From NCBI GenBank assembly GCA_012719295.1, contig JAAYAQ010000209.1, positions 1 through 40,385 on the forward strand: 40,385 nucleotides of DNA, written 5' to 3'. The translations under genes were made by a program, and so were the position numbers. Below, in pieces: positions 14,239-23,375 of this stretch. Position 1 is the stretch's first letter; every line of letters begins with the position of its first letter. The notes beneath the pieces were generated by a model that was not told the origin of the DNA, ran no database searches, and worked only from the letters and a program-made list of their open reading frames with translations. Source of the DNA: Candidatus Hydrogenedentota bacterium (lineage in GTDB: Bacteria > Hydrogenedentota > Hydrogenedentia > Hydrogenedentales > SLHB01).

Positions 14239-14248
14239 CCTTCGTCAC
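14239..14248 (+). repeat. Target-site duplication, left copy
   Basis: CCTTCGTCAC directly abuts the left end of the element at 14249 and is repeated exactly at 14507-14516. Confidence 0.75.
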
Positions 14249-14506
14249 CAGGGCGATCGCACTGAATGCCCCCCGCACAAATGGTCTTCGTGAGACGGGT
14301 CGTTTGTGATCCCAGTCCCCCGTTCTTCCTGCGAAAGCAGGGGTGCCCACTGGATTCCTGCTTGCGCAGGAACGACGTTGGAAAACGCCGTTTCCTGCGG
14401 AGATCTGCATTTTCTCTTGGCGAATGCGCTGACTTGGGGTAGGTAGAGAGCACCTGTTCTTCCGGCGAACGGACGGTTTCCATCTGGTTTTAGTGCGATT
14501 GCCTTG
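14249..14506 (+). mobile_element. MITE-like non-autonomous element, 258 bp, complete
   Basis: The ends are imperfect inverted repeats: CAGGGCGATCGCACTG on the left and CAAGGCAATCGCACTA read inward on the right (13 of 16 match). The element is flanked by a perfect 10-bp direct repeat. Inside are two stem-loops, CCTGCgaaaGCAGG (14328-14341) and TTCCTGCttgcGCAGGAA (14355-14372), of the widespread type whose translation gives the chance string 'FLRKQES'. There is no transposase frame. The CAGGGC-like end and 10-bp duplication recall ISAs1-family elements, but that assignment is tentative. A diverged copy in the opposite orientation begins at 40232. Confidence 0.8.
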
Positions 14507-14516
14507 CCTTCGTCAC
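14507..14516 (+). repeat. Target-site duplication, right copy
   Basis: CCTTCGTCAC follows the right end of the element and is identical to 14239-14248. Confidence 0.75.
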
Positions 14517-14642: not shown

Positions 14643-15407
14643 ATGATCATTGATTGTCACGGCCACTGTTCCATTGACGGCTCGTACTCTCTGTCGGCGG
14701 ACGATACGGTGCGCAGCCTCGACCTGTACGGTATAGACCAAATCTGCTGTTCCGCCCCCATCACCAGCGGCGAAGCGACCCCGGACCTTATCCGCGCGCG
14801 AAATGATCTTATCCTCGGCGCGATGCGGAAGTATCCGGACCGCATTATGGGCATGTGCTTCCTGAACCCGGGCCATCCCCGCGAGGCCCAGGATGAGATC
14901 ACCCGCTGTGTGGTCGACAACGGGATGGTCGGGGTCAAACTGTACAATCAATACCGTATCTGCGATCCCGTGCAGTTTCCCGTCATCGAACGGTGCATCG
15001 AACTCGGGGTGCCCATTCTCATGCATGCGGGGTATCCCGCCGCGCCGGAATTGCGCGAGCAGCAACCCCGTATCTCCACCGGGATGCATTTCGCCGGCGC
15101 GGCCCGGCGCTACCCCGAGGCCATGTTAATCTGCGCGCACATCGGCGGCGGCGGCGATTGGGAACGCCAGCTCAAGGGCCTCCGCGAAGCCCCAAGCGTC
15201 TTCGTCGACACAGGCGGTTCGGTCATCGACGCGGGCATGCTCGAACGCTGTGTGCGCGAACTCGGAATCGACCGTCTCCTCTTCGCGTGCGACGGCAGCA
15301 TGGAACGCGGCCTCGGAAAGATCCTCGACGCGGGCCTTACCGAAGCCCAGCGCGCCAAGCTCTACAGCGCCAATTTCCTCAACATCCTCGCGAGGAGAAA
15401 GCGATGA
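14643..15407 (+). CDS. Amidohydrolase (Amidohydro_2 family), metal ligands present
   Basis: This is a 254-residue TIM-barrel hydrolase of the amidohydrolase-2 (PF04909-type) superfamily. The metal site is visible: 'DCHGH' at 4-8 (HxH), 'MHAGYP' (His about 128), 'ICAHIGGG' (His about 165) and 'ACDGSM' (Asp about 216). Family members hydrolyse or decarboxylate small ring or carboxylate substrates using a bound metal. The start is the ATG at 14643; the frame runs upstream to 14493 but that part is not conserved-looking and crosses the MITE end. The stop overlaps the next start (ATGATGA), so the two are translationally coupled. The substrate is unknown. Confidence 0.85.
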   Translation: MIIDCHGHCSIDGSYSLSADDTVRSLDLYGIDQICCSAPITSGEATPDLIRARNDLILGAMRKYPDRIMGMCFLNPGHPREAQDEITRCVVDNGMVGVKLYNQYRICDPVQFPVIERCIELGVPILMHAGYPAAPELREQQPRISTGMHFAGAARRYPEAMLICAHIGGGGDWERQLKGLREAPSVFVDTGGSVIDAGMLERCVRELGIDRLLFACDGSMERGLGKILDAGLTEAQRAKLYSANFLNILARRKR

Positions 15408-22920: not shown

Positions 22921-23290
22921 TGAGTGGGCCGGGCGGTCGCGGTAGCGTCGAAAGGCGGTATCGAGGAAAGTCCGAGCTCCACAGGGCAGGGTGCTTCGTA
23001 ACGCGAAGGCGGGGTGACCCGACGGAAAGTGGCACAGAAAACACACCGCCTACGTCCGCCATGGGCGGGCCGGCAAGGGTGAAAAGGTGCGGTAAGAGCG
23101 CACCAGCGGCTTGGCGACAAGCCGGCTTGCTAAACCCCACCTGGAGCAATTCCGAATAGGGGGGCGATGGAGTGGCCCGCTCCGCCCCCGGGTTGGAAGC
23201 TGGAGGCCTGCGGCGACGCAGGTCCTAGAGGAATGGCCGCACAGGGACGGTTCGCCGTCCTGGACAGAACTCGGCTTACAGGCCCACTCA
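22921..23290 (+). ncRNA. rnpB: RNase P RNA, bacterial class A
   Basis: This is the catalytic RNA of RNase P, which matures tRNA 5' ends. All the conserved blocks are present in order. The P1 5' strand GAGTGGGCC (22922-22930) pairs with GGCCCACTC (23281-23289). The 5' core word GAGGAAAGTCCGAGCTCC is at 22963-22980. GGTGCGGTAAGAGCGCACC follows, then AGAGGAATGGCCGC, and finally ACAGAACTCGGCTTA near 23264. The length of about 370 bases is typical of type A. No U-tract terminator is visible after it, and the CheW gene begins only 86 bases later. Short protein frames overlapping it are spurious. Confidence 0.97.
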
Positions 23291-23375
23291 CCATCTGGGG
23301 CATCGGGTCCCGCACACACGACGCCGAGGGGCCACGGTTCATATGCACGCCGGAAAACCACCGGGGAGGCTGGAT

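Follow-up and report, generated by a model that had tools for sequence, protein, structure and literature searches.

Bacterial MITEs, such as the 147 of Anabaena sp. 90 (PMC3542288) and the IS1182-type MITEPye1 (PMC11578231), are short, multi-copy, non-coding and foldable elements, mostly intergenic, with inverted ends and duplications. The element described here resembles them in all these traits but has another end sequence and belongs to another family and, in contrast to them, its palindromic payload occurs in the genus as a free repeat as well. The ISAs1 family (NF033564; PF13808 + PF01609) is its closest relative by the ends: the terminal inverted repeats of these IS agree base for base with the MITE consensus, CAGGGCAATCGCACTTAA... 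and ...TTTAGTGCGATTGCCCTG, and the target duplication is 10 bp in both. Unlike an ISAs1 IS, the MITE contains no transposase gene, and the two have only about 15-19 terminal bases in common. REP/BIME-type intergenic palindromes, which are known targets of IS (PMC1525189), are similar in that they form inverted hairpin pairs, and an IS-like end is likewise found inside the MITE palindrome on contigs C52 and C138. In contrast to REP/BIME, nearly all good palindrome copies are here inside a transposable element and not free between genes. Our literature searches returned no published description of this MITE, which is a further family within a well-known kind and stands out by its unusual payload.

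The element lies between two genes of the window, that is, the whole stretch of 40,385 nucleotides that was analysed (Table 1). A first-pass annotation had proposed a complete 258-bp MITE-like element at this place, with perfect 10-bp duplications as evidence of transposition. Direct reading and about 30 relatives in the genome confirm the element: both copies of the duplication are identical and directly abut it, and the insertion brought a net gain of 268 bp (258 + 10). The inverted ends that had been claimed are indeed present, 18 nt long and imperfect, with 83% complementarity. We consider it very probable that this is a MITE which a DDE transposase of the ISAs1 family mobilised in trans and which carries a palindrome doublet. 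The ends, the duplications, the copy number, the element-free syntenic site in a genome of the same genus (G001) and the ends in common with intact ISAs1 IS of other genomes are observed. Thus the observation made in the first-pass annotation is real and its interpretation is supported in the main points.

Table 1. Features of the MITE locus and of the second copy in the window.
Feature	Position	Strand	Basis
Left target-site duplication CCTTCGTCAC	14239..14248		Read from sequence; border-repeat test
Non-autonomous ISAs1-type MITE, 258 bp	14249..14506	+	Sequence, copies, duplications
Left terminal inverted repeat CAGGGCGATCGCACTGAA	14249..14266	+	Inverted-repeat search; same end type on intact ISAs1 IS
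Palindromic core, folding as two hairpins (14326-14343 and 14355-14372) or as a single long stem	14316..14382		Folding; stand-alone in sister species
Right terminal inverted repeat TTTAGTGCGATTGCCTTG (inverse = CAAGGCAATCGCACTAAA)	14489..14506	-	Inverted-repeat search
Right target-site duplication CCTTCGTCAC	14507..14516		Read from sequence; border-repeat test
Second MITE copy, ends in its palindrome at contig end	40232..40385	-	Genome search
Flanking gene, GT4-type glycosyltransferase, 789 aa	11766..14135	-	ORF + domain match
Flanking gene, amidohydrolase (Amidohydro_2), divergent from GT4 gene	14643..15407	+	ORF + domain match

Across the GT4-amidohydrolase locus, G001 is about 90-92% identical to the window. 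There the two divergent genes are conserved, about 253 bp apart, and the MITE is absent; the spacer of the window measures 507 bp, or 239 bp once the 268-bp insertion is subtracted. The middle of the G001 spacer is too diverged from the window for a base-exact alignment of the junction. When 12 candidate places were scored in each of G001 and G002, no MITE was seen in either genome and the matches concerned the palindrome only. Measured from the borders of the MITE, the distance to the start codon is 113 bp for the GT4 gene and 136 bp for the amidohydrolase gene. It had been suggested that removal of the element would bring the GT4 promoter about 300 bases closer to the amidohydrolase cluster; such a shift exists, but its size is 268 bp. 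Between 14100 and 14700 we found no sigma-70-like promoter, and a weak terminator-like site is located at 14396-14409, within the MITE. An effect of the MITE on neighbouring expression is possible. An Rfam scan of the window gave only RNase P RNA (bacterial class A, 22921-23294).

The assembly to which the window belongs (G000; 4.79 Mb, 641 contigs, 94% complete) contains 49 stretches matching the MITE on about 30 contigs, two of them in the window. Of the full-length copies, for which the first-pass annotation had proposed a search, seven have pairwise identities of 83-92%. Many copies are interrupted by contig ends, and the MITE family is therefore probably one reason why the assembly is broken. 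Nine copies are assembled at both ends, and eight of them have direct repeats of 10 bp or more at their borders. The longest repeats of the nine measure 10, 10, 14, 0, 11, 14, 10, 11 and 16 bp; those of 11 bp include one base which also fits the element end. When left flanks were paired with the right flanks of other copies as a control, the longest repeat in 72 trials was 6 bp, hence the repeats of 10-16 bp are not due to chance. On C616, C515 and C558 the repeats of 13-16 bp reach 3-6 bp into one element end, where the outer bases are changed, and the copy on C378 is the one without any border duplication. The earlier annotation had counted copies lacking duplications or ending at other positions as evidence against its reading, and these copies are in part of that sort.

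Although the copies diverge from one another by 8-17%, their duplications have stayed free of mutations, and the larger part of the divergence therefore probably predates these insertions. Judging from the sequences, several diverged source copies were probably active. A longer variant of about 550 bp on C215 has the target-site duplication CCCCCGAATT and several hairpin units, and on C87, C234 and C319 a unit of about 120 bp that includes the palindrome doublet is repeated in tandem. A left-end fragment of the MITE, which shares 92% identity with the window over 76 bp, was also found at 2879-2964 of JAKLFY010000229.1 (L049), in a MAG labelled Verrucomicrobia whose genome otherwise has no match to the window region.

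The end pattern CARGGCAATCGCACTWAA occurs, among the matches listed, at more than 100 places in genomes of many phyla, against about 30 places expected by chance according to our own estimate. Three IS loci encoding an ISAs1 transposase (L056, L064 and L167) share the ends of the MITE. In Methylobacter KS41, a 1203-bp IS is bounded by ends of this type, in several cases with duplications of 10 bp or longer; the one checked encodes a 371-aa transposase which matches NF033564 (ISAs1) with 410.7 bits. An IS-like locus with the same ends in a gammaproteobacterial MAG encodes a transposase scoring 403.4 bits with the same model, and both proteins match PF13808. Closer to the window genome, G034, which is from the same order, carries a 1333-bp ISAs1 IS with the ends CAGGGCAATCGCACTTAA and TTTAGTGCGATTGCCCTG and the 10-bp duplication CGCGAAGGGC; this locus is 100% identical to that of the Hydrogenedentota MAG USDE_maxbin.110, and the window genome is accordingly assigned to Hydrogenedentota. 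Two further loci, L131 and L137, were discarded as IS: they appear to have long pairs of terminal inverted repeats but the transposase ORF is absent.

The initial guess, ISAs1 first, was thus a good one, since matching ends bound intact IS of this family in other genomes. A transposase with the same ends was found only there: searches of G000 with NF033564 and PF13808 detected no ISAs1 transposase, and none was found in the genomes of the same genus. The partner transposase would have been lost from the genome or left out of the assembly. As it was not found in an assembly that is 94% complete, the MITE is not necessarily still mobile; the absence of the transposase bears on present activity and not on membership by origin.

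The own genome does contain an IS4-family transposase (C340); no other DDE_Tnp_1 transposase was detected in the assembly. Such an enzyme, which also makes 10-bp duplications, could be supposed to move the MITE. Its element has TATTGTGTCC on both flanks when read by eye and its ends have a GCACTTA core in common with the MITE. However, these ends, GAATGGCACTTACTTAAG, depart from those of the MITE at the outermost positions, on which transposases usually depend, whereas the ISAs1 IS ends fit throughout, and the protein matches transpos_IS4_1 and not ISAs1. We consider this partner very unlikely and rejected it on its ends. The C340 element (L048) extends from about 115 to 1985 and contains a second ORF of 119 aa.

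Two internal stem-loops had been noticed in the first-pass annotation. The core of the MITE has two hairpins, at 14326 (TTCCTGCGAAAGCAGGGG) and at 14355 (TTCCTGCTTGCGCAGGAA), which can also pair into one long stem with 26-nt arms. The fold of the whole MITE as DNA has a z of -3.7, and none of 200 shuffles was equally stable. Compared with other MITE copies, the TCCAG...CTGGA part of the doublet is partly deleted in the window copy. The full doublet has the form CGTCA-hairpin-TCCAG...CTGGA-hairpin-TGACG; G001 and G002 have it on its own, without the MITE ends, and it is therefore probably older than the MITE. In the own genome, clear palindrome copies are in the MITE context, the exceptions being two copies on C533 and one fragment on C464. 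The idea of a palindrome family carried inside the MITE is thus borne out by the sister species, but free copies of the palindrome are not common here.

That the doublet stands alone in sister species, and is reiterated within some MITE copies, could also mean that the palindromes are themselves the mobile unit, REP/RAYT-like or part of a homing system, with the ends and duplications being incidental. We judge this extremely unlikely. The moving repeats of the own genome share ISAs1 ends and 10-bp duplications, and REPs moved by RAYT are not known to produce such duplications. Moreover, the C515 copy lacks the first hairpin, yet its ends and duplication are present, and the unit dispersed with duplications stops at the ISAs1 ends and not at the palindrome.

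Under the preferred reading, a MITE moved by an ISAs1-family transposase, the enzyme would recognise the CARGGCAATCGCACTWAA ends in trans and the element would be inserted into a 10-bp staggered cut, the repair of the gaps giving the flanking duplication. The palindrome doublet may have been captured between ISAs1 ends; it would then be copied with each transposition and reiterated in tandem in some copies. The result is a clear example, in a little-studied phylum, of a MITE family whose transposase family could be identified through shared ends and in which a probably older intergenic palindrome was multiplied by riding in a transposon.

Similar arrangements exist elsewhere. In HYD1, a 182-bp ISAs1-ended element encloses the same type of doublet, and short ISAs1-ended elements of SJ408 (G294), USPA_maxbin.121 (G293) and Loclat (G298) have other palindromes inside. 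In these last three genomes parts of the palindromes are also found outside, with the pair of terminal inverted repeats at none of 12 partial-match loci; these were chosen for being partial and show the existence of free modules, not their frequency. A comparable folding excess is small or absent in the ISAs1-ended elements of Ozemobacteraceae, Longilinea and Prevotellaceae, so the pattern of a palindromic interior is not universal. Tentatively, and with less than even confidence, we propose that MITEs with ISAs1 ends have repeatedly served as vehicles for intergenic palindromes: in several genomes not related to one another they would enclose the palindromic repeat of the genome concerned and make static REP-like repeats transpose.

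Free palindrome doublets were also seen beside genes for short GIY-YIG nucleases, on C533 of the own genome (L198/L215) and in G001 (L032), G008 (L214) and G033 (L234). Such hairpins are present at three of nine short GIY-YIG loci versus none of 21 UvrC-like loci; a GIY-YIG neighbour was found at only one of the palindrome loci of the relatives, and the link is a weak lead.

Finally, the same IS end is inserted within the MITE palindrome, between CGCAG and TTAGGATGAG, on C52 (L206, at about 775) and on C138 (L240, 17-122) of G000. It reads MNKGITVGLDL..., and these first residues suggest that it may be IS110-like. The two contigs overlap at this inserted end and probably adjoin.
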